From positions 62,001-126,000 of the forward strand of contig NZ_CP015987.1 of NCBI RefSeq assembly GCF_001658005.1: a stretch of 64,000 nt of DNA. Reading direction: 5' to 3'. Numbering within the stretch: position 1 is the stretch's first letter; each line of letters opens with the position of its first letter. Below, piece by piece: positions 26,433 through 55,109 of the stretch. Below the pieces are notes generated by a model. The model made no database searches. It saw only the letters and a program-made list of their open reading frames with translations, and had not been told where the DNA came from. This DNA comes from Sphingobium sp. EP60837. GTDB lineage: Bacteria > Pseudomonadota > Alphaproteobacteria > Sphingomonadales > Sphingomonadaceae. The position numbers were made by a program, and so were the translations under genes.

Positions 26433-28637
26433 TCATCCAAGATCGACGGCGATCACCTCATGGTAATCAATGAGCGGCACATCGACGATGACGCGCTCGC
26501 CATCGACCTGAATTGGAACATGGTCGCCACTAGATAGCCTGCGCACCTGCAAGGGCCGCGTGCCAGCCGGAAGCTGAAGGGCGACTCGATAAGGGCCTGT
26601 CGGGATCGCCGCACGATAGCTGCCCCGCATCGTCATGGGATTGTTGAGGCTAACCAGGTGCGCGGTGACAGAGTTTTTTTGACGCCAGTATGCGATGTCC
26701 ACCAACCCCGGCCCGTCAATCTGTAGCGGCTGCTGCTCGTCGTGCGCCCAGTCCACCATTGATTGCAGCAGGGTCAGATGATCACCATGCGACAGTTCGG
26801 CGAATGTGCGATCAATATCCATTGGCAGATAGACAACGCGGCCCTTACCGGCTTGGCGACAGATCGCCATGGGGATGTTGCTTTCCGTGCGGTCAGTATA
26901 GACCCGCTCCATCGGCAGGTCAGGGTAGGATGGCACCAGCGTCAGCGCCACCTCCGACGCATTGCGCGCCTTGACCGGTTGCCGCCGGATTGGGCCGATC
27001 GTCCGGCTGATCTCTGGCAACTTCGCCATCGCAGGGTGCGCGTGGTGGATTGTCAGATAGGCATTGCGGAGCGGTCCCTCCTCCTCACCTGTGATGGAGC
27101 AACCGAACAGGTCGGCCAGTGCAAAGTCTGGACGGCGCTGTCCATCGCCGTCGAACAGCGAGGTCTGATGCGTTGCGATCACGCAACCGCCGCGGGCGAC
27201 GAAGGCGCGGACTTGCTGGCACTGGGTATCGGAGAGCACGGCAGCATTGGCGAGGATCAGCGTTCTGAAGCGGGAGAGGCTTGCCTCGTCGAGGAAGCCG
27301 TCGTCGATCATGTCGAAAGGAATGCGGGACTCCAGCAGCGCCTGATAGAAGCCGCGCAAATGCCCATCCAAATCGTGCCGTTGCTTCCATCCGCCAAGGA
27401 AAGGTGGCGTGCGGGTCGATAGCACCAGCCCGACTCGCGCGAGATTATGCGTATTGCGCAGATAGCGGTCATTGGCGTGATGCCATTGATAGAGATCGCG
27501 AGCCACGTCCATCCAGCGCTTGTCCAGCGGCTTGCCGTTGAATTTAGTGATCCAGGGACGCGCTCCTTGCGCAATCGCGCCGGCTGCCCAGATACGGATT
27601 TCAGGCGCAGCCTGCACCGAATCCTTCCAGCGATAGGATTCCTCCACGCCGACGGAAATGATATGGCCGACAGGCTTGTCCTGCATGAACGCGCGCAGTT
27701 CGCGCGTATATCGGCCGGCACCCCATGCTTCAGGTCCTGGTGCCCATGGTGAGTTTTCGACCGATCGGGCCTGGCGGTCACAAAAGGCGATGGGAAGCCG
27801 TTGCGACAGACCGGGGCCATTCAGTTCGACCAGGCCGCGCCGGTCGCTGCCGGGAATGAAGCTGGCCGAAGGGCGATGCTTGCGCGCTGCAGCGTTCCAA
27901 CGGTCGATCAGCGCGAAAAGGCGGGTCTCCACCCAGGCGGCATAGCGGCGCCCCGCGGGTGTCGATGGATCCGGATCAAGCGGTATGTCCAGCCCCGACG
28001 CGGCCCGGTATTGCGTCCGGCAGCTTTCACAATAGCAGGTACCGCTTCCGTTCCAGCGATTGCCGAAAACGCCGTCAATGGGATAGCGCCGGGCAATCTC
28101 TTCAATCACCTTGGGCATCAGTTCGAAATTATAGGGGCCGTAAGCGCAGGTCAGCGTCAGATCGGGCGCGCTGCCGTGGCGCTTGCTCTTGCCATCTGGA
28201 CCAGTGAGTGCCCATTCGGGATGCGCGGCGGCAGCCGCTGCATTCATCGCGTGGGGATCGATGCGGGCAAGCACGCGCAGGCCCATCTTCTTGCAGGCGA
28301 AGACCATGTCGCCGAACGGGTCCTGCCCCCTGTCCACCCCTGGAGCCATGCCGTGATAGGCGATCGCCGTCGGATAGAAAGCGATCCCGCCACCAGCGCT
28401 CAGACATACCCCGTCGGCATGGATGTCCCGGAAATAATCGGTCCAGAATTTGGGATCGAAATGGCCGACGTCATCCTCTGTGAAGGCGAGCTGGAACCAG
28501 CGCATCGGTTCTGTCGCCCAGTCCGGCGCGACATCGCGGCTTGCGCGTGCGGCCATGGCGGGGTCGAGGCGGGAGAGAAGCGCTCCGCCGCTCAGTGCCA
28601 GCGCGGTGCGTCGGCTGACTGGCATGATGTCCGGCAT
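26433..28637 (-). CDS. GHL6-type putative glycoside hydrolase with trimerisation-like domain
   Basis: A 734-residue exported protein. Its N-terminus (PVSRRTALALSGGALLSRLD) is Tat-like. Residues about 45-330 match the hypothetical glycosyl hydrolase 6 barrel: YFRDIHADGVCLSAGGGIAF, FPTAIAYH-type surroundings, RYPIDGVFGNRWNGSGTCYC, and the conserved CYCESC cluster. A beta-galactosidase trimerisation-like domain (about 400-620, AFVARGGCVIATHQTSLFDG) and a C-terminal beta domain follow. The ATG at 28637 has AGGGAGAG upstream. A paralogue lies at 43555-45699. No GHL6 enzyme is confidently characterised to my knowledge, so the substrate is open. It is divergent from the propeller gene across a long palindrome. 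Confidence 0.72.
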   Translation of the reverse strand: MPDIMPVSRRTALALSGGALLSRLDPAMAARASRDVAPDWATEPMRWFQLAFTEDDVGHFDPKFWTDYFRDIHADGVCLSAGGGIAFYPTAIAYHGMAPGVDRGQDPFGDMVFACKKMGLRVLARIDPHAMNAAAAAAHPEWALTGPDGKSKRHGSAPDLTLTCAYGPYNFELMPKVIEEIARRYPIDGVFGNRWNGSGTCYCESCRTQYRAASGLDIPLDPDPSTPAGRRYAAWVETRLFALIDRWNAAARKHRPSASFIPGSDRRGLVELNGPGLSQRLPIAFCDRQARSVENSPWAPGPEAWGAGRYTRELRAFMQDKPVGHIISVGVEESYRWKDSVQAAPEIRIWAAGAIAQGARPWITKFNGKPLDKRWMDVARDLYQWHHANDRYLRNTHNLARVGLVLSTRTPPFLGGWKQRHDLDGHLRGFYQALLESRIPFDMIDDGFLDEASLSRFRTLILANAAVLSDTQCQQVRAFVARGGCVIATHQTSLFDGDGQRRPDFALADLFGCSITGEEEGPLRNAYLTIHHAHPAMAKLPEISRTIGPIRRQPVKARNASEVALTLVPSYPDLPMERVYTDRTESNIPMAICRQAGKGRVVYLPMDIDRTFAELSHGDHLTLLQSMVDWAHDEQQPLQIDGPGLVDIAYWRQKNSVTAHLVSLNNPMTMRGSYRAAIPTGPYRVALQLPAGTRPLQVRRLSSGDHVPIQVDGERVIVDVPLIDYHEVIAVDLG

Positions 28638-28705
28638 GATCTCTCCCTGTCGATATCCGTCATTGCCCTCTCCCTCTAGTCCAAGACGGCGTCGCCACAA
28701 TCAGC

Positions 28706-29976: not shown

Positions 29977-31650
29977 ATGATCTGGTCGCAAAATTATGAT
30001 CCGCTGGGCAGTGGCTGGCTGTCGGCGCTGGTTGCAGCGGTGCCTGTCATCGTCCTTCTTGGGGCGATCGGCCTGTTTCATGTCCGTGCGCATGTGGCCG
30101 CGCTGATGGGCCTGGCCGCTGGATTGCTGGTGGCGATTTTGGTATTCGGCATGCCTGCGGGGCTTGCCCTGCGCGCCGCCGGCTTTGGCGCGGCTTATGG
30201 GTTGTTGCCGATCGGCTGGATCGTGCTCAACATCATCTTCCTGTATCAATTGACCGAAGCGACCGGGCAGTTCCATGTGCTGCGCACAGCCATCACCACG
30301 ATTACGCCCGACAGCCGCCTGCAACTGCTGCTGATCGCCTTTTGCTTTGGCGCCTTTTTCGAAGGTGCGGCTGGTTTTGGAACGCCGGTGGCGGTGACGG
30401 GCGCCATGCTCATCGGGTTGGGGTTTACCCGGCTGCAGGCATCCGGCTTGTCGCTGATTGCCAATACTGCTCCTGTGGCGTTCGGGGCGCTCGGCACGCC
30501 GCTCGTCACTCTGTCCGGGGTGACGGGTCTTCCGCTTCTGGAACTGTCCGCCATGGTAGGGCGACAGATGACGCCTTTCGCCCTTATCGTGCCGATCTGG
30601 CTGCTCGTCGCTTATTGCGGATGGCGCCGGACGATGGAGGTGATGCCTGCCTTGCTGGTGGCAGGGACCAGCTTCGCCGCAGTGCAACTCGCGATATCAA
30701 ATCTGCATGGGCCTTGGCTGACTTCGATCGGCGCTGCGCTTGCCTCCATCGTCGCGCTCATCCTCTTCCTCAGGATATGGCAACCCGCGCGAATCATGGC
30801 AGTGAACGAAGCACCGCTGGCGCCTGGTGATGAGCGTGATGCAGCCGCTACGACCGACAGCGTGAGTGCGCCATCGGCAAGCTATGAGGCTGCGGCCGTC
30901 AAGCGGGCATGGATGCCCTGGATAATCCTGACCGCCTGCGTTTTCATATGGGGTCTGCCATTCGTGAAAGGCTCGCTCGACGACATCTTCGCGCTCCATC
31001 TGTCTTTTGCCGGGTTGGACGGCGTCATCCAGCGGTTACCTCCGGTCGTCACGCATCCTGAGTTCGAAAAAGCCGTCTATAATCTGAACATGCTTTCCGC
31101 CACCGGAACGGCCATTTTGGTGGCGGCGCTGCTGAGCGCAGCGTTGCTGCGCATTTCGCCGCGCCGATTGGGGACTATCTATGCTCGCACTTGGATAATG
31201 GTCCTGCCGTCCCTGTTGACGATCGCAGCGATGCTGGCCCTTGGCTATCTGACGCGTTTCGGCGGTATCGATGCCTCGATGGGCCTCGCATTCGCGGCAA
31301 CCGGGACGCTTTACCCCTTCTTCGGTACGATGCTGGGTTGGGTGGGGGTTGCGGTGACCGGGTCGGACACGGCGTCGAATGTCCTGTTCGGCGGTCTCCA
31401 GAAGGTGACGGCGGAGCAGCTGAACCTGTCGCCGGTGCTGATGGCGGGCGCGAACAGTGCAGGCGGCGTCATGGGCAAGATGATCGATGCGCAGAGCATC
31501 GTCGTCGCTTCGACCGCTACTCAATGGTTCGGGCAGGAAGGACGCATCCTGCGCCATGTCTTTGTGCACAGTCTGGCTCTGGGATCGCTGATAGGTCTAT
31601 TCGTGATGTTGCAGGCCTATGTTTATCCTTTCACCTTGCTTGTACCCTGA
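29977..31650 (+). CDS. lactate/glycolate permease (LctP family)
   Basis: A 557-residue inner-membrane transporter with about 12-14 hydrophobic helices. It carries the LctP signature FFEGAAGFGTPVAVTGAMLI and the downstream NTAPVAFGALGTPLVTLSGV. Family members take up L- or D-lactate or glycolate with protons. Its stop codon overlaps the glycerate kinase start (TGATG), so it is co-transcribed with glycerate kinase, hydroxypyruvate isomerase and tartronate semialdehyde reductase. In this setting a two- or three-carbon hydroxy acid such as glycolate or glycerate is a likelier cargo than lactate; that is inferred. Confidence 0.87.
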   Translation: MIWSQNYDPLGSGWLSALVAAVPVIVLLGAIGLFHVRAHVAALMGLAAGLLVAILVFGMPAGLALRAAGFGAAYGLLPIGWIVLNIIFLYQLTEATGQFHVLRTAITTITPDSRLQLLLIAFCFGAFFEGAAGFGTPVAVTGAMLIGLGFTRLQASGLSLIANTAPVAFGALGTPLVTLSGVTGLPLLELSAMVGRQMTPFALIVPIWLLVAYCGWRRTMEVMPALLVAGTSFAAVQLAISNLHGPWLTSIGAALASIVALILFLRIWQPARIMAVNEAPLAPGDERDAAATTDSVSAPSASYEAAAVKRAWMPWIILTACVFIWGLPFVKGSLDDIFALHLSFAGLDGVIQRLPPVVTHPEFEKAVYNLNMLSATGTAILVAALLSAALLRISPRRLGTIYARTWIMVLPSLLTIAAMLALGYLTRFGGIDASMGLAFAATGTLYPFFGTMLGWVGVAVTGSDTASNVLFGGLQKVTAEQLNLSPVLMAGANSAGGVMGKMIDAQSIVVASTATQWFGQEGRILRHVFVHSLALGSLIGLFVMLQAYVYPFTLLVP

Positions 31651-33020: not shown

Positions 33021-33803
33021 GTGGTTAAGCTTGCGGCCAACCTGTCCTTGATGTTCACGCACCTAGCTTTTCTCGATCGGATCAACGCGGCGGCAGATGC
33101 GGGTTTTCGTGGCGTCGAGTTCATGTTCCCTTATGAGTTTTCCGCCGATGAGATCGCCGCGCGAGCCGCTCGGAACGGTTTGGAGATCGTCCTTTTCAAT
33201 CTTCCCGCAGGTGATTGGGAACGCGGCCAGCGCGGAATCGGGGCGCTACCCGACCAGATCGATGAATGTCGGCGCGGGGCGGCTTGGGCGCTGGATTATG
33301 CGCGCCGTCTCGGGTGCCGCAGATTGCATCTCATGGCCGGGAAAGCGCCCGCCGACCCGCGAAACCGGAGAACGCTGGTCGATAATGTCGCCTTTGCCGC
33401 AGACCTGTTTGCACCTCATGGCATCGATTTGCTGATCGAGCCGATCAACACTCGCGTGGACATTCCCGGCTATTTTTATTCGACCAGCGAGGCGGCTCTC
33501 TCCGTCCTGAGCGAGGTGGGGCGGCCGAACACGAAGCTGCAATATGACATCTACCATATGCAGGTCATGGAGGGCGATCTTGCCCGCAACATCGAGCGTT
33601 TGTTGCCGGAAATTGGCCACATCCAGCTCGCCGACAATCCCGGACGCGCCGAACCGGGGACGGGCGAGATCAATTATGCCTGGCTGCTGCCCCATATCGA
33701 CGCCCTAGGCTATTCCGGTTGGATCGGGTGCGAGTATCGCCCGGCCGGGGATACAGCCGCTGGCCTGGGCTGGGCCGAACCATTTCTGAATCAAACAGGA
33801 TAA
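33021..33803 (+). CDS. hyi: hydroxypyruvate isomerase
   Basis: A 260-residue TIM-barrel enzyme interconverting hydroxypyruvate and tartronate semialdehyde. It opens VKLAANLSLMFTHLAFLDRI and has the family segments FRGVEFMFPYEF, DLLIEPINTRVDIPGYFYST, and QYDIYHMQVMEGDLARNIER, with metal-binding E, D and H residues in those stretches. It starts with GTG, preceded by AGGAG. The next gene, the reductase, begins 5 nt after its stop. Related enzymes decarboxylate 3-oxo sugar acids in apiose catabolism, so a different substrate cannot be excluded. Confidence 0.87.
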   Translation: MVKLAANLSLMFTHLAFLDRINAAADAGFRGVEFMFPYEFSADEIAARAARNGLEIVLFNLPAGDWERGQRGIGALPDQIDECRRGAAWALDYARRLGCRRLHLMAGKAPADPRNRRTLVDNVAFAADLFAPHGIDLLIEPINTRVDIPGYFYSTSEAALSVLSEVGRPNTKLQYDIYHMQVMEGDLARNIERLLPEIGHIQLADNPGRAEPGTGEINYAWLLPHIDALGYSGWIGCEYRPAGDTAAGLGWAEPFLNQTG

Positions 33804-33808: not shown

Positions 33809-34693
33809 ATGAAGATCGGATTCATCGGACTAGGCATCATGGGACGGCCTATGGCGGGCCATCTGCTGGCGGCGGGGCACGGCCTTTACAGCTGCATCAA
33901 TCGCACGCCTCTTGCCGAGGAACTGCAAAAAGCAGGTGTCGTCACCTGCAGCGATCCCGCAGCGGTCGCGGCCGAGGTGGAATGCGTCATCCTGATGCTG
34001 CCGGACACGCCCGATGTCGATCATGTGCTGTTCGGTCCCGATGGTGTCACGACCGGATTGAGGCCGGGCACGATCGTCATGGACATGAGTTCGATCGACC
34101 CGATCGCAACTCGTGATTTCGCGAAGCGGATCGAAGATCTGGGCGGCGCCTACATCGATGCCCCGGTATCGGGCGGCGAGGTGGGCGCGCGCAACGCAAG
34201 CCTGACCATCATGTGCGGCGCGAAGGCCGAGACGTTCGAGAAGGTGAAACCGCTGCTCGAAGCCATGGGCAAGAATATCACGCTGGTCGGCAATGTGGGC
34301 GCGGGGCAGATCACGAAGGTCGCGAACCAGATCATTGTCGCGCTGAATATCGAAGCGGTGGCAGAAGCGTTGCTATTCGCATCGCGCGCCGGCGCCGATC
34401 CCGCCCGTGTGCGCGAGGCACTGATGGGCGGTTTCGCCGCGTCCCGTGTGCTGGAGGTGCATGGCCAGCGGATGATCGACCGCAGCTTTGCGCCCGGCTT
34501 CCGCCTCAGTCTGCATCAGAAAGACCTCAACCTGGCTCTGTCGGGCGCTCGCACGCTAAGCCTCTCCCTACCCGGCACGGCTTCTGCACAGCAGTTGATG
34601 AGCAGCTGCGTCGCGAACGGCGGTGGTGACAAGGACCATTCAGCTTTGGTCGAGGCGCTGGAACTGGCCGCCAATCACAAGGTCAGCGGTTAG
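33809..34693 (+). CDS. glxR: tartronate semialdehyde reductase
   Basis: A 294-residue beta-hydroxyacid dehydrogenase that reduces tartronate semialdehyde to D-glycerate using NAD(P)H. The Rossmann start is MKIGFIGLGIMGRPMAGHLL. The substrate-binding motif is DAPVSGGEVGARNASLTIM and the catalytic lysine lies in GAGQITKVANQI. Length and motifs match GlxR/GarR. It follows hydroxypyruvate isomerase directly, which completes a route hydroxypyruvate to glycerate to 2-phosphoglycerate with the kinase. Glyoxylate carboligase, the usual source of tartronate semialdehyde, is absent from the window. Confidence 0.9.
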   Translation: MKIGFIGLGIMGRPMAGHLLAAGHGLYSCINRTPLAEELQKAGVVTCSDPAAVAAEVECVILMLPDTPDVDHVLFGPDGVTTGLRPGTIVMDMSSIDPIATRDFAKRIEDLGGAYIDAPVSGGEVGARNASLTIMCGAKAETFEKVKPLLEAMGKNITLVGNVGAGQITKVANQIIVALNIEAVAEALLFASRAGADPARVREALMGGFAASRVLEVHGQRMIDRSFAPGFRLSLHQKDLNLALSGARTLSLSLPGTASAQQLMSSCVANGGGDKDHSALVEALELAANHKVSG

Positions 34694-34827
34694 ACCGAGC
34701 GTCAAATCTGCTGGCCGGTAAACGCCCGCAGATGTGCGTCACTCAACGGCCAGGGGAGCTGCGCCAATTCCTTATCGACATTTGCCGGCAAACAGGTCAT
34801 ACCAGTTTCAGGGCTGGAGCATTTGTC

Positions 34828-35655
34828 ATGCTGATGGCCCATGCAGGCGAGGATGCAAATGTGAGCAATATCCGCGAAGAGTTGGATGAGGGCGCCTTAG
34901 GTCGGGTGCAGTCCCTGGTTCGCGCATTCGGCTTGATGGATGAACTGGCCAAAAGTGACAGCATGACCCTGAGCGACTTGGCGCGTACGGTCAGTCTCCC
35001 GCGATCAACAGCACATCGCCTGCTGACAACGATGGAAGCGCTGCGTTACGTCACGTTCGATAGAGCGACCAATCGTTGGTCGATCGGGGTACAGGCGTTT
35101 ACCGTCGGAGCCGTTTTCGCGCAGACGCGGGATCTTGGAAAACTCGGCCGGTCAATCATGCGTTCGCTTATGGCCGAAGTAAACCATTGCGTGAATATCG
35201 CCGTGCCGGAAGGGCGGGGCATTTGCTATGTCGGGCAGGTCGCGCAAAATGGCTTCCGTCCGACCGCTGCGCGCCCTGGTGCAGTGCTCCCTCTGCACAC
35301 GACCGCATCGGGGAAGGTGCTGATGGCGCATTGGACGCGCCAGGAGTTCGACGACTATGTCGCTCAGGCCCCCCTCAAGGGACGCACATCCCGCAGCATT
35401 GTAGATGCCGACCGTCTCCGCAAGGAACTGGCGACTATCCGCGACCGTGGCTATGCCATGGATGATGAGGAATATGACGCCGGGCTGCGCTGTGTCGCGG
35501 CGATGGTGCATGATCGTGATGGCTTGCCCAAGGGCGCGTTGTCTGTGTCCGATCGGTCATCGCAGTTGGCGCGGACAAGGCTGTATGAGTTGGGACCGAC
35601 GTTGGTAATGGCCGCCCAGCAGATGAGCAGCGAGATCGCCGCCCAATATTTCTGA
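34828..35655 (+). CDS. IclR-family transcriptional regulator
   Basis: A 275-residue regulator. The winged helix-turn-helix is at about 30-75 (MTLSDLARTVSLPRSTAHRL, LTTMEALRYVTFD), followed by the IclR effector domain (VNIAVPEGRGICYVGQVAQN, PLHTTASGKVLMAHW, GLRCVAAMVHDRDGLPKGAL). I place the start at ATG 34828, with GGAG upstream, and not at the distal ATG at 34732. It lies directly behind the glycerate module and most likely controls it in response to a small hydroxy acid such as glyoxylate or glycerate, as AllR and GclR types do. Effector identity is inferred. Confidence 0.87.
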   Translation: MLMAHAGEDANVSNIREELDEGALGRVQSLVRAFGLMDELAKSDSMTLSDLARTVSLPRSTAHRLLTTMEALRYVTFDRATNRWSIGVQAFTVGAVFAQTRDLGKLGRSIMRSLMAEVNHCVNIAVPEGRGICYVGQVAQNGFRPTAARPGAVLPLHTTASGKVLMAHWTRQEFDDYVAQAPLKGRTSRSIVDADRLRKELATIRDRGYAMDDEEYDAGLRCVAAMVHDRDGLPKGALSVSDRSSQLARTRLYELGPTLVMAAQQMSSEIAAQYF

Positions 35656-35863: not shown

Positions 35864-37105
35864 ATGAACGCCACATGGCGCCAAGGCGGAAGACGCCCTT
35901 ATACAATCAGGCGGATCGCGTTTATTTCAGTGCTTGCGATAGGTGGCTGCCTGACGGCAAGTCCATTGCCCGCAGCGCCGGCGCCTTTATCCTTCGCACT
36001 GACCAACATCTACGTGCCGTCTTATGAGGACGACAAGGCATGTCGTGCCTTGTCGCTCAGTTCCAGCGACATATTCCTGCAAAGCCTGCCGCCTGCCGAG
36101 CGGACGAAATATGAAGCTCCCGAAAAGGTTCAGGCCCTTCACAGGCTGATGAGCGACAAACTCGGTTTCAAGATGGTGCCCACCGGTCACGCGTCGGGAG
36201 CAAATGGGAGCATGGCGGCGGTTCCGGAGACGGAACAAGAGGCGCTCCGGCAGAAATATCATATCCCCAAGGGCAAGGGCGTATTGTCGTTCCTCGGTAC
36301 GCGGCTAGCCTATGATAGTTGCACCAATCCCGAGGATTTTCCGTTCCTGGCCAAAGGCAATGAACCTTATCTGGGAAAGGTCGCCTATGGGATCGACCTG
36401 GACGGTCGTAACGGTAAGAATGACTTTCGGGGCCCCAATGGGGAACAGGGCGTCGACAACGAACTGATCCGCGCGACCGGATGCAACTTCGCCACACGGG
36501 ACTATGGTACGCCCAAGGTGGCGGATGAAGTGATCACGTCGATCGGCTCGCCCACGCTGGTCGAGATCACCGACGTTGACGATCCATTGAACGACGACGA
36601 CGTGACCGTCCATGTCTATGCGAGCGCCAGTCCGCTGGAAGTCTCGGGTTCGGGCAAGGGACTGGGCTGGGCAAGCCTGGATGTCGATCCCGACCCGCGC
36701 TTTCAGACCCAGGTAAAGGGGCGCATCCGCAACGGCGAGCTGAGCACCGAACCGTTCGACCTGCGGGTGCGCCTGCGTGAACAGATCGTCGACAGTTATC
36801 GCGAGGTGCGGCAGGCACAGATCCGCGCGACGATCAAGCCGGGGGAAAGCATCGAAGGCGGGATCTACGGTTACCACACGCTCGCCAGTATCGAGGAAGG
36901 ATATCATCAATCGACGCAGGTCGGCGCCAATCTGACCCGCATGTCCTGTCCCGCCCTCATCAAATCCGTCCGCAGTCACGCTGACGCCTTTCCCGATCCC
37001 AAGAGCGGGCGCAACACGGCGATTTCTTCCGCTCTGCGGTTCCGTGGCATTCCCGCCTTTCTCATCAAACCGGCTCAAAAGGTGGCCCAAGGGTCGCAGC
37101 AATGA
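35864..37105 (+). CDS. unknown exported protein, first gene of the DUF1592/DUF1552 operon
   Basis: A 413-residue protein with a signal peptide that includes a possible lipobox (VLAIGGC), so it may be a lipoprotein. The mature part has the segments YGIDLDGRNGKNDFRGPNGE and VDNELIRATGCNFATRDYG, then a beta-rich stretch with DVDDPLNDDDVTVHVYASA. I recall this pattern from uncharacterised proteins accompanying DUF1592 genes in planctomycetes and myxobacteria, but I know no function. It has no haem motif. AGGAGAGG precedes ATG 35864. Its stop overlaps the next start by 4 nt (ATGA). Confidence 0.75.
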   Translation: MNATWRQGGRRPYTIRRIAFISVLAIGGCLTASPLPAAPAPLSFALTNIYVPSYEDDKACRALSLSSSDIFLQSLPPAERTKYEAPEKVQALHRLMSDKLGFKMVPTGHASGANGSMAAVPETEQEALRQKYHIPKGKGVLSFLGTRLAYDSCTNPEDFPFLAKGNEPYLGKVAYGIDLDGRNGKNDFRGPNGEQGVDNELIRATGCNFATRDYGTPKVADEVITSIGSPTLVEITDVDDPLNDDDVTVHVYASASPLEVSGSGKGLGWASLDVDPDPRFQTQVKGRIRNGELSTEPFDLRVRLREQIVDSYREVRQAQIRATIKPGESIEGGIYGYHTLASIEEGYHQSTQVGANLTRMSCPALIKSVRSHADAFPDPKSGRNTAISSALRFRGIPAFLIKPAQKVAQGSQQ

Positions 37106-38778
37106 ACGATAAGACTTCCAAGGCCATTCGCATCGGTTCGGCGGTGACGGCATTGTGCGCGGTAGGCGCTATCCTGCTTGCCGGCACCGCGGGGCGGGCG
37201 GATCAGCCGGAGGCGGGCGTACCGAAGCTGCGCCGCCTGACCGAAGCCCAGTATCGCGCGACGATCGCCGACATTTTCGGACCGGACATCAAGATCAGCG
37301 GCCGGTTCGAGCCTGATTTGCGGGTGGGCGGCCTGCTGGCCGCCGGAACAAGCGCGGTTTCGCTGACGCCGTCCGGTGCCGAACAATATGAACAGATTGC
37401 GCGCGGCATCGCCGAGCAGGTGGTGGACAAATCGCATCGGGACCGGCTGATCACATGTCAGCCTGGTCCTACCGATCCCAACGGAGCTGCCTGCGCGGAG
37501 AGCTTCTTCGACAGGGTGGGTTTGCGGCTTTACCGGCGGCCTTTGAGCCCTACCGAAAGCCGACTGGCCGTTTCGCAGACATTAGCCTCGGCGCGCACGC
37601 TCAATGACTTCCATGCAGGCGTGGCCGTCATGCTGACGACCATGTTGTCGGATCTGCCATTCCTGTTCCAGATGGACAGGGTGGTGGCTGACCCGGCGCA
37701 CCGTTCGGCCCAGACCCTCGATGCCTGGTCGCGGGCGAGCAAGCTCAGCTATTTCCTCTGGAACAGCACCCCTGACGAGGAATTGCTCAACACCGCCAGG
37801 GATGGTTCGCTGATGACGCAGGCGGGGCTTGCCCAGCAGGTCGGCCGCCTGATGGCCTCACCCCGGTTCGAGACCGGCGTCACGGCCTTCTTCGACGACT
37901 TTCTGCAGCTGGAAGGCATGATGTCCTTGTCGAAGGACTCGCTCATCTATCCCGCTTTCCGGTCTTCCGCCGGTCCTGCGGCGCGAGAGCAGACATTGCG
38001 CACGATCGTCACGCTGCTGGCGCGGGAAAACGGAGATTATCGTGACCTGTTCACGACCAGGCGGGTGGCGATGAATCGCCAACTCAGTCCGCTTTACCGC
38101 ATGCCCTACGCACCGCGCGACTGGTCGATGATCACCCTGCCGGACAGTGATCCGCGCGTGGGCTTGCTGACGCAGATAAGTTTCCTGGCCCTTCATTCGC
38201 ACGAAGGACGATCGTCGCCGACGCTGCGCGGGAAGGCGTTGCGGGAAGTGCTGATGTGCGAGCATATTCCAACGCCCCCCGCGAACGTCAACTTCACCAT
38301 CGTGCAAGATACGTCCAATCCGAGCCTGCGCACCACGCGGGAGCGGCTAAAAGCGCATCTCGACGATGAAGAATGTGCCAGCTGCCACAAACTGACCGAC
38401 CCAATGGGTCTTACCCTCGATAGTTTCGATGGCGCGGGCCAGTTCCGGGCGAGCGAAAATGGCATGGCGATCGATACATCGGGATCGCTCGGCAATGTGA
38501 GTTTCCCAGATGCTGCGGGCCTCGGCAAAGCGCTGCATGACAGCCCGCAAGTGACGCAGTGTCTCGCTCAGTCGGCGTGGCGCTATGCCGTGGGTCGAGA
38601 GGCGCTGGCGAGCGAGGAACCGGTGACCGCCGCGCTTCACAATGGTTTCGCGCAGAGCGGTTTTCGCATCCGGGCGCTGTTCCGGCAAATTGCCACGGAT
38701 CCCCATTTCTTCGCGGCCACATCGCGCGTGCCAACTCGCACCACGGCGGCGCGGCATTCAGCTAGGAAGTCATCATGA
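37102..38778 (+). CDS. DUF1592/DUF1588/DUF1585 haem-binding protein (planctomycete-type cytochrome)
   Basis: A 558-residue exported protein. A hydrophobic signal (about 10-32) is followed by a DUF1587-like start (RRLTEAQYRATIADIFG). Then come DUF1592 (about 130-260, FFDRVGLRLYRRPLSPTESR, SKLSYFLWNSTPDEELLN), DUF1588 (about 320-440, RVAMNRQLSPLYRMPYAPRD, LLTQISFLALHSHEGRSSPT) and DUF1585 at the end. Within DUF1588 is a c-type haem motif CASCH (C425, C428, H429) followed by KLTDPMGLTLDSFD. Families like this are abundant in planctomycetes and are presumed envelope redox enzymes on glycans; no reaction is established. It overlaps both neighbours by 4 nt. Confidence 0.85.
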   Translation: MNDKTSKAIRIGSAVTALCAVGAILLAGTAGRADQPEAGVPKLRRLTEAQYRATIADIFGPDIKISGRFEPDLRVGGLLAAGTSAVSLTPSGAEQYEQIARGIAEQVVDKSHRDRLITCQPGPTDPNGAACAESFFDRVGLRLYRRPLSPTESRLAVSQTLASARTLNDFHAGVAVMLTTMLSDLPFLFQMDRVVADPAHRSAQTLDAWSRASKLSYFLWNSTPDEELLNTARDGSLMTQAGLAQQVGRLMASPRFETGVTAFFDDFLQLEGMMSLSKDSLIYPAFRSSAGPAAREQTLRTIVTLLARENGDYRDLFTTRRVAMNRQLSPLYRMPYAPRDWSMITLPDSDPRVGLLTQISFLALHSHEGRSSPTLRGKALREVLMCEHIPTPPANVNFTIVQDTSNPSLRTTRERLKAHLDDEECASCHKLTDPMGLTLDSFDGAGQFRASENGMAIDTSGSLGNVSFPDAAGLGKALHDSPQVTQCLAQSAWRYAVGREALASEEPVTAALHNGFAQSGFRIRALFRQIATDPHFFAATSRVPTRTTAARHSARKSS

Positions 38779-40121
38779 CCAACATGAACAGGCGCGGATT
38801 CTTGCTGCGCGGGGCCTTTGCCGGGGCCGCGGTGGGCGTGGGCCTACCGTTCCTGGACTATTTCCTCGATGATAACGGCACCGCCTTCGCCGCTGAATAT
38901 GGCGGGGGTCGATTGCCGGTGCGTTTCGGTACTTGGTTCTGGGGTTGTGGCATGATCCCCGACCGCTGGAACCCGAAAAAGCAGGGGGCGGGCTATGACC
39001 TGCCGCCCGAACTGGCGCCGGTCGCGCCTGTGCAGGACAAGGTGACGATCCTGTCGGGCTTCAGCGTCTCGCTGGATGGGAAGAGCAACCAGCCGCATAT
39101 TTCCGGCAATATCGGCCTGCGCACCGGAACGCCGGTGGATTCCTGGCAGCAGATCGTCGCGCCCACGCTGGATACCACGATCGCGGATACTATCGGATCG
39201 GGTTCCTTTTTCCGCAGCCTGGACCTGAGCGCCGATGGAAATGCACGGACGAGCTTCTCCTACCGCAGCGGCACGGAGATGAACGCCAGCGTCGCGTCGC
39301 CGATGGAACTGTATCAGCGCGTATTCGGGGCGGACTTCCACGATCCCAACGCAGCCGAGTTCAAGCCCGATCCGCGCATCATGGCGCGGCGGAGCGTGCT
39401 GTCCGCTGTGACTGACGAGCGCCGCCGGATGATGGGCAAACTCGGTGCGGAAGATAAAGCGAGGGTGGACAGCTATTTCACTGCCATCCGCGAGGTCGAG
39501 ACTAAGCTCGCCCTGCAATTGGAAAAGCCGCCAAAGGCCGAAGCATGCGTCGTTCCGCAAAGGCCCGCTGAAATGGCCCCCAGCACTGACGTGATCGAGC
39601 GTCAGAAGTCGCATAAGCTGATGGCGGATCTGCTCGCAATGGCCCTCGCCTGCAATCAGACCAAGGTTTTCAACATGGTCTTTTCCACCGCGACAGCGGA
39701 CTTGCGCAAAGCGGGTTCGACCACGGCCTATCATCAAGCCACGCATGAAGAACTTGTGGACAAGACCAAAGGCTATCAGCCGACGGTGGATGCCTTTTCT
39801 ACACAGAGCATGCAGGGTTGGGCGGACTTCGTGGCGTCGATGGCGGCGGTGAAGGAAGGCGATGGCACCCTGCTCGACAACATGCTGGTCATGGCCCATT
39901 CCGAAGTCAGCTATGCCAAGAACCATGACGTCAACGGCATACCGGTGATGCTGGCCGGACGGGCAGGCGGCAAGGTCAAGAGCGGAATCCATGTCGCCAG
40001 CCAGGGCGACGCGATCTCCCGCGTGGGGCTGACAATGCAGCAACTGATGGGCGTCCCGCTCGACGGATGGGGCACGGGGTCGATGCGCACAAATCGGTCC
40101 ATTTCGGAGATCATGGTATGA
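38775..40121 (+). CDS. DUF1552 protein, Tat-exported
   Basis: A 448-residue protein whose N-terminus (NRRGFLLRGAFAGAAVGVGL) is a classical twin-arginine signal, implying export folded and perhaps with a cofactor. The body matches DUF1552: RFGTWFWGCGMIPDRWNPKK, VTILSGFSVSLDGKSNQPHI, RRSVLSAVTDERRRMMGKLG, and a sulfatase/DUF1501-like end (MLVMAHSEVSYAKNHDVNGI, PVMLAGRAGGKVKSG). DUF1552 and DUF1592 genes are habitually adjacent, so the two are probably partners. It overlaps the VOC gene by 4 nt. Function unknown. Confidence 0.87.
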   Translation: MTNMNRRGFLLRGAFAGAAVGVGLPFLDYFLDDNGTAFAAEYGGGRLPVRFGTWFWGCGMIPDRWNPKKQGAGYDLPPELAPVAPVQDKVTILSGFSVSLDGKSNQPHISGNIGLRTGTPVDSWQQIVAPTLDTTIADTIGSGSFFRSLDLSADGNARTSFSYRSGTEMNASVASPMELYQRVFGADFHDPNAAEFKPDPRIMARRSVLSAVTDERRRMMGKLGAEDKARVDSYFTAIREVETKLALQLEKPPKAEACVVPQRPAEMAPSTDVIERQKSHKLMADLLAMALACNQTKVFNMVFSTATADLRKAGSTTAYHQATHEELVDKTKGYQPTVDAFSTQSMQGWADFVASMAAVKEGDGTLLDNMLVMAHSEVSYAKNHDVNGIPVMLAGRAGGKVKSGIHVASQGDAISRVGLTMQQLMGVPLDGWGTGSMRTNRSISEIMV

Positions 40122-40597
40122 AGAAACTTTTCATCGCACCGTTGCTGATGCTGCCGCTGGCCATGGCCGCCGCACCGGCACAGGCCGATCCGCAATCTAC
40201 CCCAGCAATGGGGTTTGTTTCGCTTGAGGTGGCGGACATGGCCCGGGCCAAAAGCTTCTATGCCGATACGCTGGGTATGAAGCCGATCCTGACGATCAGC
40301 AAGCCGACTGACCCGTTCCAGAAGATCGCTTACAACTTCTCGGGCAATCCGCAATCGAACGAAACGTTGTTGATCCTCATCCACTATGATCGTCCCAAGG
40401 CGGATCAGAATAAATCATCCGGCGCGAAGATCGGGCTGCGGGTCGCCGACACCCGGGCCATCGCGGCGAAGGTCAAGTCCGCCGGATATCAGCTGGTTAG
40501 CCAGCCGGCTGTGGACGCCAAGGGGCCGGTCCTGAACAGCGTCGTGCGCGATCCGGACGGGGTGATCGTGGAACTTGTCGAGCTTCGCATGCCCTGA
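40118..40597 (+). CDS. exported VOC (glyoxalase-fold) protein
   Basis: A 159-residue protein with a Sec signal peptide (LFIAPLLMLPLAMAAAPAQA) and one vicinal-oxygen-chelate domain: GFVSLEVADMARAKSFYADT, LGMKPILTISK, and NSVVRDPDGVIVELVEL. VOC proteins bind a divalent metal and act as isomerases, dioxygenases or lyases; candidate metal ligands are the E in SLEV, and E in VIVELVE. Export of a VOC protein is unusual. Last gene of a four-gene operon with DUF1592 and DUF1552, so it may finish a periplasmic oxidation or cleavage. Its stop lies 12 nt from the convergent AraC gene, with no terminator hairpin visible. Confidence 0.8.
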   Translation: MKKLFIAPLLMLPLAMAAAPAQADPQSTPAMGFVSLEVADMARAKSFYADTLGMKPILTISKPTDPFQKIAYNFSGNPQSNETLLILIHYDRPKADQNKSSGAKIGLRVADTRAIAAKVKSAGYQLVSQPAVDAKGPVLNSVVRDPDGVIVELVELRMP

Positions 40598-40609: not shown

Positions 40610-41731
40610 TCAACTGGGGTGGGCCGCCGGTTTCATGCTCCGCCGATAATGGGTCGGAGCCATGCCAGTCCAGGCGTGAAATGCCGATCGCAGGGAATCG
40701 GAATCGCAAAAATCCAGGCGTTCGGCGATTTCCTCGATCGGCAGATCGGAGTTGACGACAAGATCGATGGCGATGCCGCGCCGGACTTCATCGCGCAACT
40801 TGTGAAAGGTCGTGCCTGCCGCGCTCAGCCGCCTGCGCAATGTCATGCGACCCAGCACCAGCTCATTCGCCAATTCATCGAGCGACAGCATGCGCGCCTC
40901 TTCCCGCAGGGCCAGCGCCATGAGCTGCCGTGATCGCCGTGCGATTTCCTCCGGATCATTTCCGTCACGCAGGCCGAACAGAAAATTGAGCGTCGGCGCC
41001 GCCTCGCAATCATCCATCGTCCTTAGGACAGGAAGGTCGAGCATGCGTTCGGCAAAGATCAATTCGGATCGCGGCGTCCCAAGACGGAGTTCGAAGGGCC
41101 AGCTGTCATCGTCCAGATAACATGCTGCGGAATCTGGGTAATCCAGCGCTGCGATGCCACCCAGCGGGACGCCGATAAGCCAGCTGAAGATTGAGTGGAA
41201 CATGAGCTCGCCATGAAGCGAGACGATGAAGTCCAGTTCCTCGTCTCCGCTGCGAGCGCCGCGGAGCGTCAGCCGTGCCCAGGAACCGGAGCAGTTGAGC
41301 GAAGCGAACCCCATGCGACCGTCGATCGCCACCAGCAGCTCCTCCATCCGCTGGATCGCTTCGCGCAGGGATTTGCTACCGGTGAGGCAATAGAAGAGCA
41401 ACCGCCAGTCGCCCGCGCGAAAAAGCGCGCGGCCCGCCTTGCGCGATTGCATGTCGGCAGCGACGACGCTCGCGTGGGAGGCGATCGCCCGCAACTTCTG
41501 TTTCTCGACGGCGAGCAATCCAGGACCCAGAAATTCGGCCAGGGGCTGGTCGATGTTCCGAGTAGCCAATACAGACTGCGCATCGCCGCCCCTGCTCTCA
41601 ATTAGGCGGAGCAACCGCGCGACAAAGCGGTGGCCGGTGGCGAGCAGATTTTCATTCGGACGGCGCACTCCCGGGGGCTGCTTCGCCGCCAGCCCTTTTC
41701 CGCGATCCGATGAAAAGGATGGTTCCGTCAT
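40610..41731 (-). CDS. AraC-family transcriptional regulator (OruR/ArgR-like)
   Basis: A 373-residue regulator. The N-terminal two-thirds is the arabinose-binding-like ligand domain of the Arabinose_bd family (LLFYCLTGSKSLREAIQRME, FHSIFSWLIGVPLGGIAALD). The C-terminal 95 residues hold the double helix-turn-helix (MLSLDELANELVLGRMTLRR, then IEEIAERLDFCDSDSLRSAF). I take ATG 41731 with AGGA upstream; a TTG 6 codons earlier is possible. It starts 22 nt after the cyclase gene ends, so the pair is probably co-transcribed. Targets are unknown. Confidence 0.85.
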   Translation of the reverse strand: MTEPSFSSDRGKGLAAKQPPGVRRPNENLLATGHRFVARLLRLIESRGGDAQSVLATRNIDQPLAEFLGPGLLAVEKQKLRAIASHASVVAADMQSRKAGRALFRAGDWRLLFYCLTGSKSLREAIQRMEELLVAIDGRMGFASLNCSGSWARLTLRGARSGDEELDFIVSLHGELMFHSIFSWLIGVPLGGIAALDYPDSAACYLDDDSWPFELRLGTPRSELIFAERMLDLPVLRTMDDCEAAPTLNFLFGLRDGNDPEEIARRSRQLMALALREEARMLSLDELANELVLGRMTLRRRLSAAGTTFHKLRDEVRRGIAIDLVVNSDLPIEEIAERLDFCDSDSLRSAFHAWTGMAPTHYRRSMKPAAHPS

Positions 41732-41752
41732 TTCCTGCTTCCGCGTCAAATG

Positions 41753-42553
41753 TCAGAAGAGCGCGATGGCCCGAATGGGAATACCGGTGGCCTCTGCAAT
41801 GGGAGGTGCGCCCACGAACATTATGGCGCCGGAGGCTGGCGCCCGATCGAGATTGGCGACGGCTTCTAAGCCCCAGCGGCCGCTCCGCAGCCAGCTTCGA
41901 TGCACCGGATAAGCAGGCATATCGCGCCCGGCATCCAGGGAGAGCGTATCGACCGCGATGCCCCGTACATCCCGCTTTAGCAGAAGATCGGCTGCGGCCC
42001 GGCTGAAACCGGGGCTCTTGCGCCGCTCCTCCGGTGATAAGCTGCCATAGCGGGCCACTTCCGCCAGTGGATCCCAGGCTGAGAGCATCGCGACACAGCA
42101 ACCGGCCGGCAAGCTGCCATGCTTCGTTTCCCAAGCGGCCAGGTCTTCTGGTCCCACTTGCGCATCGCGGTCCAACTGGCGCTTTGCCCTGATGTCGATC
42201 ACGACAAGAGGCACGACCAGATCGGCGATTGACAAGTCGCCAACGCTGCGGCCCCCGGGAGAGAAATGGCGGGGCGCATCGAGATGGGTTCCGGTGTGCT
42301 CAACGATCGAAAGTCGGTTAAGCCGCATGCCAGCCCCGGTGCCGGACCCTTCCACCGCTTCCATCGACAGGCGTCCAGGTGTGAAGGCGAAAGCGCGGGT
42401 CAGCCGATGTGTCAGATCGACGATTTCAAGCCTACGCCCATGCAGTTTGATCGTCGCATCATCGGGCGAAACCGCAGATGCAAAGGCTTCGGGGGTCCGG
42501 CTAGCAAAGGCGGTGACCAGGCTTGCAGCCAAAACAGCGCGGCGGTCGATCAT
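41753..42553 (-). CDS. cyclase-family (kynurenine formamidase-like) hydrolase, exported
   Basis: A 266-residue protein with a Tat-like leader (MIDRRAVLAASLVTAFASRT). The cyclase-family metal site is HTGTHLDAPRHF with H86, H90, D92 and H96, which in KynB-type enzymes binds Zn or Mn and hydrolyses amides, lactones or related bonds. Later segments (VRGIAVDTLSLDAGRD, PVHRSWLRSGRWGLEAVANL) fit the family. An exported cyclase-fold enzyme in a glycan locus could act as a lactonase; this is inferred. A TGGTNNNACCA site lies about 130 nt upstream. Confidence 0.82.
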   Translation of the reverse strand: MIDRRAVLAASLVTAFASRTPEAFASAVSPDDATIKLHGRRLEIVDLTHRLTRAFAFTPGRLSMEAVEGSGTGAGMRLNRLSIVEHTGTHLDAPRHFSPGGRSVGDLSIADLVVPLVVIDIRAKRQLDRDAQVGPEDLAAWETKHGSLPAGCCVAMLSAWDPLAEVARYGSLSPEERRKSPGFSRAAADLLLKRDVRGIAVDTLSLDAGRDMPAYPVHRSWLRSGRWGLEAVANLDRAPASGAIMFVGAPPIAEATGIPIRAIALF

Positions 42554-45842: not shown

Positions 45843-47141
45843 TCAGGCTGCGTCGTCGATCAGGATCACCCGGAAGTCATTCACGGTCGTCCGCGTCGGC
45901 CCCGTAAAGACAAGATCGCCCAGCGCTTCGAAAAAGCCGTAGCTGTCGTTCCGCCGCAGCATCCCAGCGGGGGAAATCCCCTCTGCCTTCGCCCGCCGCA
46001 GCGTCGATCCATCGATGATCGCCCCGGCATGCCCTCCTACGCCGTCAATACCGTCTGTATCGCAGGCAATCGCCGAAATCCCCGCGGCACCGTCTAGTGA
46101 AAGGCCGAGGCTGAGCGCATATTCGCTATTGCGCCCGCCCTTCCCCACCTTGTTGCGCACCAGCACCGTCGTTTCTCCACCGGACAGCAACGCCCATTTG
46201 CCACCTTTGCGCCGATGATGCAGCGCGAGGGCGGCGTGCACGATGCCCAGTTCTGTCGAATCCCCTTCCAGATCGTCCCCAAGATAAACCGGCATAAATC
46301 CTTGCGATGCCGCGATCTCGCCCGCGGCCTGCAAGGCCATGTGGTTGCGCGCGACGATATGCGCCTCAGCCCGCGTCATCGCTGCGGCATCTGGCCGCGG
46401 CGTTGCGTGCCGCTCATCCTCAAGAATGCGCCGCACATGATCGGGCACCGGAATTGCGAAACGTTCAAGCACCCGCCGTGCGTCCTGTAACGTCGTTCGG
46501 TCCGCGACGGTCGGTCCGGAAGCGATCAGCGCCGGGTCATCACCTGACACATCGGAAAAGGCGAGCGTCACCACTTCGGCAGGATGCGCCAGCACCGCGA
46601 GGCGCCCCCCCTTGACCTGCGACAGATGCGTGCGGACACAATTGATCTGGGAAATCGTCGCGCCGCACAGCAGTAGCTCCTCCGTCAGTTGGCGTTTGTC
46701 TTCAAGGGAGAGACCTTCCGCTGGCAGAGCGAGGAGCGCTGAGCCCCCCCCCGATACCAGCGCGAGCAGTTGGTCTTCCTCCGTCAGTTCGGACACCGCC
46801 TCGCGGATCATCTTGGCAGCTTCCAGCCCATGCTGATCCGGCAGTGGGTGGCCCCCTTCCAGCAGCATAGCGCTCGAGGGTAGATCGGCCAGCGCGCAGC
46901 CGTGCCCATAGGGAACCAGTATGATCGCACGCGTCTGCGGCGGGGCGTCCCTCAGCGCGACTCTGGCCATGGCTGCCCCAGCCTTGCCCACGGCAACGAC
47001 AAGCCTGCGGCCTTTGGGATAAGGGGGGAGATAGGCGGGCAGGCAACGGTCCGCCGACACCGCGGATAACGCGACCTCCAACATTTCGCTCAGCAATTCC
47101 GCGTGGACGCCGCGACTTCCGGTCCTGATATCCACGCCCAC
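45843..47141 (-). CDS. glycerate 2-kinase, MOFRL/DUF4147 type (second copy)
   Basis: A 432-residue kinase of the same class as the one at 31.6 kb: LVVAVGKAGAAMARVALRDA, LALVSGGGSALLALPAEGLS, INCVRTHLSQVKGGRLAVLA, and CDTDGIDGVGGHAGAIIDGS. It should phosphorylate D-glycerate at O-2. I place the start at GTG 47141 because GGGGAG lies 5 nt upstream; the in-frame TTG further up has no ribosome site. It is divergent from the cytochrome c556 gene. Redundancy with the first copy suggests a different regulator or a different acid substrate. Confidence 0.85.
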   Translation of the reverse strand: MGVDIRTGSRGVHAELLSEMLEVALSAVSADRCLPAYLPPYPKGRRLVVAVGKAGAAMARVALRDAPPQTRAIILVPYGHGCALADLPSSAMLLEGGHPLPDQHGLEAAKMIREAVSELTEEDQLLALVSGGGSALLALPAEGLSLEDKRQLTEELLLCGATISQINCVRTHLSQVKGGRLAVLAHPAEVVTLAFSDVSGDDPALIASGPTVADRTTLQDARRVLERFAIPVPDHVRRILEDERHATPRPDAAAMTRAEAHIVARNHMALQAAGEIAASQGFMPVYLGDDLEGDSTELGIVHAALALHHRRKGGKWALLSGGETTVLVRNKVGKGGRNSEYALSLGLSLDGAAGISAIACDTDGIDGVGGHAGAIIDGSTLRRAKAEGISPAGMLRRNDSYGFFEALGDLVFTGPTRTTVNDFRVILIDDAA

Positions 47142-47470
47142 ACATTCTCCCCAGTTACATCTGCCTGTTCTAATCGGTCTCGTGTGCGGCTGCAAATGCC
47201 CGCCATTCTATTCCGTCCACTGGAACGGTCCAGAACGCTTGCTCCCTGAAACAGGCTTCCGATCGACGCGGAAGATCATACTGTTCGTCCAAAATCGACG
47301 GATTGCTCCAAAAACCCGTGTTCACTGATCCCAAACCGGGTGGTCCATGATCTCGACAGGCGTCATTTGACCATGAAAAGTCACGGATGGTGCCCAAGCC
47401 CTCCGATGCCTACCGACCGGACGAAGCGCTGGCTGACCGACAGGATGTTTTCAGAGAGGACGAAGTGAAG
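47142..47470. other. divergent promoter region, glycerate kinase 2 / cytochrome c556
   Basis: No gene is supported here. It contains a short palindrome TCCACTGGA inside CCGTCCACTGGAACGG (near 47215) that could be an operator. No strong -35/-10 pair stands out by eye. Confidence 0.4.
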
Positions 47471-47932
47471 ATGAAGCTCCCCTATTCGACAGCATTCGTG
47501 GTGCTGGGCATGTTGGCCAGCTATGCGGCCTATGCTGCGGCGCCTGCAGTCACCAACGCGATCAAGGCCCGCCAGGCGAGCTACAAGGAGATCGGCGGAG
47601 CGTTCAAAAGCATCAATGACGAGCTGAAGTCGGGCGCGCCCGACATGAACAGCGTCAAGCCGCTGGCGCGTGACATCGCCGCACGCGCCGCACTGCTGCC
47701 CAAATATTTCCCGAAGGGCAGCGGCCCGGAGGCCGGTCTCAAGACCCGCGCCAAGCCCGAAATCTGGAAGGATAACGCCGCCTTCGTGAAGCTTCAGGGC
47801 GACATGATCACCGCCGCGCGCGCGCTGGACGCTGCCGCCGCGAGCGGCAACGTTGCCGGCCTCAGCGCAGCACGAAACACGCTGGGCGGCACCTGCAAGA
47901 GTTGCCACGACCGTTTCCGCGCGGAGCTTTGA
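47471..47932 (+). CDS. cytochrome c556/c-prime family protein
   Basis: A 153-residue periplasmic cytochrome with a signal peptide (STAFVVLGMLASYAAYAAAP) and a four-helix-bundle body typical of cytochrome c-prime/c556: IKARQASYKEIGGAFKSIND. The haem motif CKSCH (C142, C145, H146) is at the extreme C-terminus, as usual for this family. ATG 47471 is chosen because the signal peptide starts there; the preceding AGAGAGGACGAAG supplies the ribosome site. Its stop overlaps the cytochrome b start (TGATG). It probably passes electrons between a periplasmic dehydrogenase and the membrane. Confidence 0.88.
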   Translation: MKLPYSTAFVVLGMLASYAAYAAAPAVTNAIKARQASYKEIGGAFKSINDELKSGAPDMNSVKPLARDIAARAALLPKYFPKGSGPEAGLKTRAKPEIWKDNAAFVKLQGDMITAARALDAAAASGNVAGLSAARNTLGGTCKSCHDRFRAEL

Positions 47933-48623
47933 TGGCGGAGGCGGACATGAGCAGCGCGCCTGCGCGCCTGCGCATCTGGGACCTGCCAACCCGTCTGTTC
48001 CACTGGACATTGGTGCCCCTGCTGGGGCTCGCCTGGTGGACGGCGGAAGAACGGATGCTCGATTGCATCGGCTCGCAGGATACAGCATCTTGACGCTGCT
48101 GCTCTTCCGCCTCATCTGGGGCGTTGCGGGCAGCAGCACCGCTCTCTTTTCCCATTTCGTGGGTGGGCCCGGAAAGCTGTTCCGCTACGTGCGCGGTCAT
48201 ATGTTCAAGCGGGGGGCGGCTCCGGCGCCCGGCCATAATCCGGTTGGCGGCTGGAGCGTTTTGGCGATGATTGCGCTGCTGGCGACGCAAGTCGGCCTCG
48301 GCTTCTTCTCGGTCGATATCGACGGCATGGAATCCGGCCCCTTCGCCTATCTGGTCGATTTTGACACCGGACGGGTCGCGGCGGAATGGCACGCGTTCGT
48401 CTTTAACATCATCCTGGCGCTGACGGCGCTGCATGTCGTGGCGATCCTCTTTTACCTGATCCATCGCCGCGATAACCTTATCGGCCCGATGATCAGCGGA
48501 TCGCGGCGATGGACTGGCGAACAGCTGGTTTTGCGGTTCGCGTCGAACCGGGTCGCGCTGGCGATCTTCCTGCTGATCGCGGGCGGGTCATGTCTGCTGA
48601 TCGCGCAGTTCGGCAGGGCCTGA
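47932..48623 (+). pseudogene. cytochrome b561-type membrane protein with a one-base frameshift
   Basis: The frame from ATG 47932 encodes LRIWDLPTRLFHWTLVPLLG and LAWWTAEERMLD, then runs into a stop about 10 codons later. The -1 continuation from about 48064 reads LHRLAGYSILTLLLFRLIWG and continues through three more membrane helices (HAFVFNIILALTALHVVAIL) to 48623. Restoring one T at 48063-48064 would give an intact 230-residue di-haem b-type cytochrome with histidines in LFHW, LHRL and helix 4. It is paired with the cytochrome c556 gene. It is either a recent inactivation or a sequencing error. Confidence 0.8.
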
Positions 48624-49511: not shown

Positions 49512-49522
49512 TCACCCGCTAC

Positions 49523-55093: not shown

Positions 55094-55109
55094 TCGAGCT
55101 GGGCGATCC

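Follow-up and report, generated by a model that had tools for sequence, protein, structure and literature searches.

A DUF1592–DUF1552 gene module and its cytochrome neighbours in Sphingobium sp. EP60837 and other sphingomonads

The four-gene set

Sphingobium sp. EP60837 carries on contig NZ_CP015987.1 a set of four overlapping genes, here named g1 to g4, the second and third of which encode a DUF1592-type haem-motif protein and a DUF1552 protein. The set occupies positions 35864-40597 (+) of the stretch analysed, i.e., positions 62,001-126,000 of the contig (64,000 nt; hereafter the window, whose numbering is used throughout). In agreement with the initial annotation, which described both families as lacking established biochemistry, no functional study of them was found in the open-licence literature, a body that leaves most subscription papers uncovered. 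The set was compared across 26 stretches, namely 25 Sphingomonadaceae loci (12-34 kb each) and 24 kb of the window, after exclusion of two duplicates (L081 of L034, L082 of L036) and a fragment (L085). Since several of the genomes are close relatives, counts over these stretches are not independent. The module lies in three neighbourhoods (types I-III), type I being represented by the window, L033-L036, L086 and L087. The four open reading frames (ORFs) and three four-nucleotide ATGA junctions of the initial annotation were confirmed:

35864..37105 (+): g1, 413 aa, predicted to be exported and belonging to a family that Pfam does not cover; relatives stand beside g2-g3 in 24 of the 26 stretches
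37102..38778 (+): g2, 558 aa, DUF1587-DUF1595-DUF1592-DUF1588-DUF1585, carrying a single CxxCH haem motif
38775..40121 (+): g3, a DUF1552/HXXSHH protein with a Tat-like (twin-arginine translocation) signal and conserved His108, His320, His324 and His384
40118..40597 (+): g4, a predicted exported single-domain VOC protein, an optional member
37102..37105 (+): ATGA overlap of g1 and g2
38775..38778 (+): ATGA overlap of g2 and g3
40118..40121 (+): ATGA overlap of g3 and g4

Scored on possible starts read from the DNA rather than on proven ones, all 19 scorable g1/g2 junctions had a g2 start codon 4 nt ahead of the point where g1 ends, and 18 of 21 g2/g3 junctions had a g3 start codon 4 or 1 nt ahead of the point where g2 ends. 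Because the overlap positions at both junctions recur across loci, they are more than chance. In an alphaproteobacterium of another family (L134) the 4-nt pattern was present at g2/g3 and absent at g1/g2. Both g2 and g3 occur in 25/26 stretches and the complete g1-g2-g3 order in 24/26, and these three genes apparently form a conserved, translationally coupled and exported unit. Conservation of gene order across genomes, suggested by the initial annotation as a check on all four genes, held for the first three; a VOC gene directly follows g3 in just six stretches.

The proteins of the module

All five Pfam domains of g2, PSD3, PSD5, PSD4 (DUF1592), PSCyt3 (DUF1588) and PSD2 (DUF1585), scored above their curated cut-offs. 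The haem motif CASCH falls at residues 425-429, within the DUF1588 part, and C425, C428 and H429 are invariant among 45 aligned sequences. The haem motif and the DUF1592, DUF1588 and DUF1585 domains that the initial annotation gave for g2 are borne out. For g2, whose AF2 model has a pLDDT of 86.7, no match among solved structures was obtained. PSCyt3 was detected in 31 of 94 genomes of the genus. Ten Sphingobium genomes (G069, G073 and G091 among them) hold PSCyt3 without any g1 match; in eight of these it sits in a longer frame of 812-912 residues and in the remaining two the frame is cut short. The g2 gene of L038 (10304-11982) is split across two ORFs.

DUF1552 is rare in the phylum (6/299 genomes, EP60837 included), and g3 matches its model PF07586 with 168.3 bits against a cut-off of 30. 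The twin-arginine start that had been assigned to g3 together with this domain is visible as an RR pair, although the TAT model scored 15.2 bits, below its cut-off of 16.7. The protein is predicted to adopt an alkaline-phosphatase-superfamily fold with four nearly invariant histidines (108, 320, 324 and 384). The HXXSHH motif of its name reads H320-x-x-T-H324-E in the window; across the family, His fills both the first and the fifth place of 12/12 sequences, and the sixth varies (E, H, R, A or Y). By motif and topology, His108 would stand at the nucleophile place of the superfamily, and g3 apparently lacks the first-strand Asp. Three DUF1552 holders of other classes encode giant DUF1592 proteins and have neither c556 nor b561 in their stretches. 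The giant DUF1592 proteins of L135-L137, from other classes, measure 1590-2157 aa and contain two to four CxxCH motifs.

At E <= 0.1, g1 matched nothing in Pfam or NCBIfam, which upholds its assignment to an unknown family. The suggestion that it is a lipoprotein fared less well: the Cys of the IGGC motif in the window is missing in close relatives (86%-identical L033, and L034-L036), which makes this reading doubtful, and g1 is probably no lipoprotein. A search with g1 gave 97 matches, compared with 4460 for g2 and 2800 for g3, the last two among about 8000 scored candidates each and listed as the best 120 of 4460 and the best 120 of 2800. Relatives of g1 occur in 21 of the 94 genomes of the genus, and it is the fastest-diverging part of the module. 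In Sphingomonas sp. DBB INV C78 (P0113) g1 and g2 are fused in one ORF of 968 aa, in two distant relatives (P0085, P0086) a CHRD domain precedes the g1 part, and the g1 gene of S. herbicidovorans is annotated in two pieces (L128, 18632-19977). EP60837 also has a lone g1 gene (C2:993585-994763), 60-71% identical to the type II g1 proteins.

The product of g4 is, as initially described, a single glyoxalase/VOC domain (PF00903, 42.4 bits against a cut-off of 20.6) behind a signal-like start. Measured against the glyoxalase I motif, the sites expected to bind metal seem to be occupied by F, K and a single Glu. An exported VOC protein recurs beside the module in the alphaproteobacterium of another family, and VOC is an optional rider of the module.

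Cytochrome partners and genomic settings

About 7 kb from the four genes the window holds a cytochrome pair, followed here and in L003, the type II locus of EP60837, by an SDR gene:

47381..47932 (+): cytochrome c'/c556, PF01322 above cut-off
47853..48623 (+): cytochrome b561, PF01292 above cut-off
48735..49511 (+): SDR, following b561

This pair had been put forward as a possible partner of the set, and its membership is borne out: c556 and b561 occur together in 19/26 stretches, on the same strand as g3 in 17 of these 19, and in L037 the order g1-g2-g3-VOC-TonB receptor-c556-b561-SDR runs in one direction. Of the seven stretches that lack the pair, six are type I loci and the seventh is a lone g1 gene. 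Four of the type I genomes (G002, G021, G055 and G088) have the pair at their second locus among the stretches, and in TomMM7A the pair lies at another place on the plasmid. Positions 47468-49514 of the window (c556-b561-SDR) share 93.6% and 84.6% DNA identity with the type II locus L003, and this identity makes the segment look like a duplicate of the end of that locus. The counterpart lies at about C2:1086.1-1088.0 kb.

In type I loci, IclR, GHL6, cyclase and SDR genes lie close to the module. Type II loci run AraC (usually divergent), g1, g2, g3, c556, b561 and sometimes SDR. In the more distant type III the order is two-component system, b561, c556, a protein resembling a secreted repeat lipoprotein (a likeness judged by eye, with no Pfam match), g1, g2 and g3. 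The alphaproteobacterium of another family has g1, g2, g3, c556, an exported VOC and a TonB receptor; no b561 match was seen in its 20-kb stretch.

Steroid and saponin genes beside the type II module

Sphingobium (also Novosphingobium) sp. Chol11 is a bile-salt degrader (PMC5754482) in which gene deletions have been made (PMC12175502). It carries a type II module, adjoined by a CoA ligase, an amidohydrolase, a Rieske/KshA_C protein, an amidase, an SDR, an MFS transporter, two Lrp-type regulators and two acyl-CoA dehydrogenases, all tested against Pfam except the SDR and one of the two regulators. Two Chol11 papers name SclA (Nov2c230), the monooxygenase Nov2c228, the amidase Bsa (Nov2c227) and Scd4A/B (Nov2c221/222) (PMC8399759, PMC12175502). 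From gene order and count we infer that the run comprises these published side-chain genes, which would put the module at about Nov2c211-215.

The acyl-CoA dehydrogenase pair stands beside half of the type II loci (6/12: EP60837, Chol11, L040, L127, L129 and L130), and these include the tomatine-soil strains TomTYG65 (L127), TomMM7A and TomTYG46. Five of the six loci without the pair, i.e., all whose stretch reaches far enough, have Rieske, amidase and CoA ligase genes. The S. herbicidovorans locus (L042/L128) instead has VOC, flavin-monooxygenase and Rieske genes. A link to GH106 had been expected of the module as a whole. It was found for the sister copy, as the best GH106 match lies 15-17 kb from type II g2 on 12/12 Sphingobium plasmid records, which are close relatives; it was not found for the type I copy of two relatives, where the best match is about 245 kb (TomTYG64) and 330 kb (TomMM7A) away and weaker GH106 places are unlocated. 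In the related strain RC1, GH3, GH106 and GH78 enzymes are reported to hydrolyse steroidal saponins (PMC10653915).

Neighbourhood of the window copy

The paired acyl-CoA dehydrogenases of the steroid side-chain cluster are absent from the surroundings of the window copy, whose neighbours are hydroxyacid and glycan genes:

26433..28700 (-): GHL6 and ThuA-like protein, type I neighbour
29977..31650 (+): L-lactate permease family, type I neighbour
33021..33803 (+): hydroxypyruvate-isomerase-like, type I neighbour
33809..34693 (+): tartronate-semialdehyde-reductase-like, type I neighbour
34732..35655 (+): IclR-type regulator immediately upstream of g1; conserved among type I loci
40610..41749 (-): AraC-type regulator with an arabinose-binding-like domain; relatives in 13/26 stretches
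41753..42553 (-): putative cyclase PF04199, type I neighbour
45843..47195 (-): MOFRL/DUF4147 protein (glycerate-kinase or hydroxypyruvate-reductase family), 37-39% identical to type I relatives

The lactate permease, hydroxypyruvate isomerase, tartronate semialdehyde reductase and MOFRL genes recur in every type I locus except L033, whose stretch ends earlier.

Further away, genes at 268-5246 (-) encode a TrwC-type relaxase and a TrwB/TraD-type coupling protein, which give the contig the appearance of a conjugative megaplasmid or chromid. The segment 9937-25559 (-) holds GH106, GH35/42-like, acetyl xylan esterase, two GH3, ThuA and GH39 genes; since its GH39 and GH106 products have relatives on tomatine-soil Sphingobium plasmids (86-90% and 70-74% identical, respectively), this segment may be a saponin-sugar locus. 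A separate sugar-use cluster at 53556-61391 (-) comprises a PfkB kinase, a LacAB/RpiB isomerase, an FG-GAP protein, an MFS_2 transporter and a TonB receptor, the last with 86-91% identical relatives near the type I modules L033, L034 and L036.

Discussion

We tentatively propose, as a possibility that falls short of being probable, that g1, g2, g3, c556 and b561, joined by VOC in a subset, form a periplasmic redox module that oxidises a hydroxylated alicyclic compound. From the observed gene order, overlaps, domains, haem motif, settings and predicted g3 fold we infer a series of steps that reach beyond export and co-inheritance. A TonB receptor would admit the substrate to the periplasm, where g1 might hold, select or present it. 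The g3 protein, on its alkaline-phosphatase-like scaffold, would be exported folded via Tat, a route that would fit insertion of a cofactor in the cytoplasm, and would bind at least one metal ion through His320, His324, His384 and probably His108. It would then oxidise the hydroxylated alicyclic compound, which may be a steroid, a steroid saponin or the sugars of the latter, and electrons would pass from g3 to the c-haem of g2 and reach the quinone pool by way of c556 and then b561. For the type I copy, the lactate-permease-like protein would import a small hydroxyacid product, to be used via hydroxypyruvate isomerase, tartronate semialdehyde reductase and glycerate kinase.

The association of g1 with KshA-type Rieske oxygenases (KshA_C) points the same way in close relatives. 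With thresholds picked after the lists had been seen, and statistics that ignore kinship, a strong KshA_C match (<1e-40) accompanied g1 matches above 250 bits in 7/7 genomes, compared with 11/87 in the genus (p 3e-6); a family-wide draw at 1e-30 gave 4/4 against 36/294 (p 3e-4), and 3/3 against 35/289 (p 0.002) once the own genus was left out.

Besides this choice of thresholds and disregard of kinship, several points weigh against our proposal. Holders of the distant type III g1 showed no clear excess of KshA_C, either in the genus (2/14 vs 9/73) or family-wide (3/8 vs 33/286, p 0.06), and steroid is therefore not a general substrate. No acyl-CoA dehydrogenase pair was present at L037, L038, L039, L042/L128, L083 or L084, in stretches of 12-42 kb. 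The type II loci of EP60837 (L003) and TomTYG65 (L127) run g2-g3-c556-b561 with no g1 within the stretch; g2-g3 therefore do not strictly need g1 beside them. The putative histidine site of g3 was placed by conservation, motif and topology, and no signal emerged when the profile of g3 was compared with those of nucleotide phosphodiesterases.

The initial annotation saw in the set a periplasmic redox machine for a sugar. Its picture of a conserved, exported unit with cytochromes stands, while sugar as the sole substrate class is weakened because the sister copy lies in steroid or saponin regions at about half of the loci. That the module oxidises or cleaves a periplasmic sugar, with VOC finishing the reaction and the type I hydroxyacid genes taking a C3 product, appears unlikely to us. 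Such a scheme would draw on the type I neighbours (lactate permease, hydroxypyruvate isomerase, tartronate semialdehyde reductase, MOFRL and GHL6/ThuA) and on a planctomycete plasmid where DUF1080 follows DUF1592-DUF1552. PF06439 (DUF1080) bears the name 3-keto-disaccharide hydrolase, which hints that related DUF1592-DUF1552 pairs may oxidise sugars. Also in favour of a sugar, a study of Verrucomicrobia places PSCyt genes close to those for sulfatases and notes carbohydrate-binding modules in some of them (PMC5615132). Against the sugar scheme, the single PF06439 match of EP60837 itself lies more than 450 kb from either copy, and the VOC protein, rare after g3, has glyoxalase metal positions that look largely unoccupied on the usual motif. 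A reversed electron flow, in which b561 and c556 feed quinol electrons to g2-g3 and a His-ligated metal activates oxygen, would make the module a periplasmic oxygenase, which we regard as rather unlikely. The conserved haem motif and histidine set and the coupled cytochromes are consistent with it, but the genomic data here favour neither direction of flow, and b561-type anchors usually carry electrons from periplasmic enzymes to quinone. Also consistent with an oxygenase, PSCyt genes tend in the same study to be commoner in epilimnion genomes of Verrucomicrobia, which its authors relate to oxygen (PMC5615132).

Two further explanations would remove g3 or the whole module from substrate oxidation. 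That the module serves respiration or stress (an electron sink or metal handling) and is a passenger in catabolic loci whose substrates it does not touch is quite unlikely in our view; its presence in three different neighbourhoods and the two-component system adjoining type III modules speak for this, but many copies are accompanied by TonB receptors or catabolic genes, and within one genome the two copies belong to different pathways. Least probable of all is that g3 is a phosphatase- or sulfatase-like hydrolase with regulatory or protective cytochromes. Its predicted fold would suit such a role, yet it is constantly paired with a cytochrome, and, by motif and topology, His108 seems to take the nucleophile place, where the superfamily has Ser, Thr or Cys, and the Asp of the first strand seems to be absent. 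The sulfatase genes close to verrucomicrobial PSCyt genes also fit a hydrolase (PMC5615132).

Returning to the redox module proposed here, a broader version of it must be called doubtful. DUF1552 would be a new class of Tat-exported, four-His metallo-oxidoreductases on the alkaline phosphatase fold, working with a PSCyt3/PSD cytochrome of a fold unseen in solved structures; in sphingomonads it would supply a missing periplasmic oxidation step in bile-salt and steroid-saponin breakdown, and the planctomycete families would perform related chemistry on glycans.

Comparison with known systems

The alkaline phosphatase superfamily (NPP, sulfatases) shares the predicted fold of g3, but the nucleophile and Asp ligands apparently are His in g3, which also has a c-type cytochrome partner. 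Exported, polysaccharide-linked proteins are also found in Cellvibrio japonicus, namely the cellulose-linked redox proteins Cbp2D and Cbp2E, of which Cbp2D has a c-type cytochrome domain (PMC12542752, PMC10916295); the two differ from the module in their domains (X158, X183 and X132), and the main text of PMC12542752 holds no DUF term, while DUF1687 alone appears in PMC10916295. A DUF1592 protein with a CBM2 from Cellvibrio is listed in a lignocellulose data set (PMC6004670), and the text of PMC12882949 has no mention of cytochrome, DUF, 'unknown function' or 'hypothetical'.

A close likeness is to the PSCyt3 (DUF1588) plus PSD2-5/DUF1552 genes of Planctomycetes and Verrucomicrobia, which have the same domain set and the same g2-g3 pairing; a planctomycete plasmid has DUF1587, DUF1592 and DUF1552 genes in a row. 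The sphingomonad module adds g1, c556, b561, AraC or IclR regulators, TonB receptors and sometimes VOC, none of which is annotated beside the single planctomycete pair compared. The type II module directly adjoins the Chol11 side-chain cluster (SclA, Nov2c228, Bsa, Scd4AB), in a gene order common to EP60837 and 3/3 tomatine-soil plasmids, whereas the window copy lies in another neighbourhood and 6/12 type II loci are without the cluster within the stretch compared. The published Chol11 side-chain work, in its accessible part, assigns the module genes no role, and PMC12175502 describes the sphingomonad bile-salt side-chain pathway as largely unknown; the module is a candidate adjoining that pathway. 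It is of a known but unexplained kind, in a genomic context richer than the settings we found described, and its compact, regulated form in sphingomonads such as Chol11, where the cytochrome partners are fixed, makes a long-open function directly testable.

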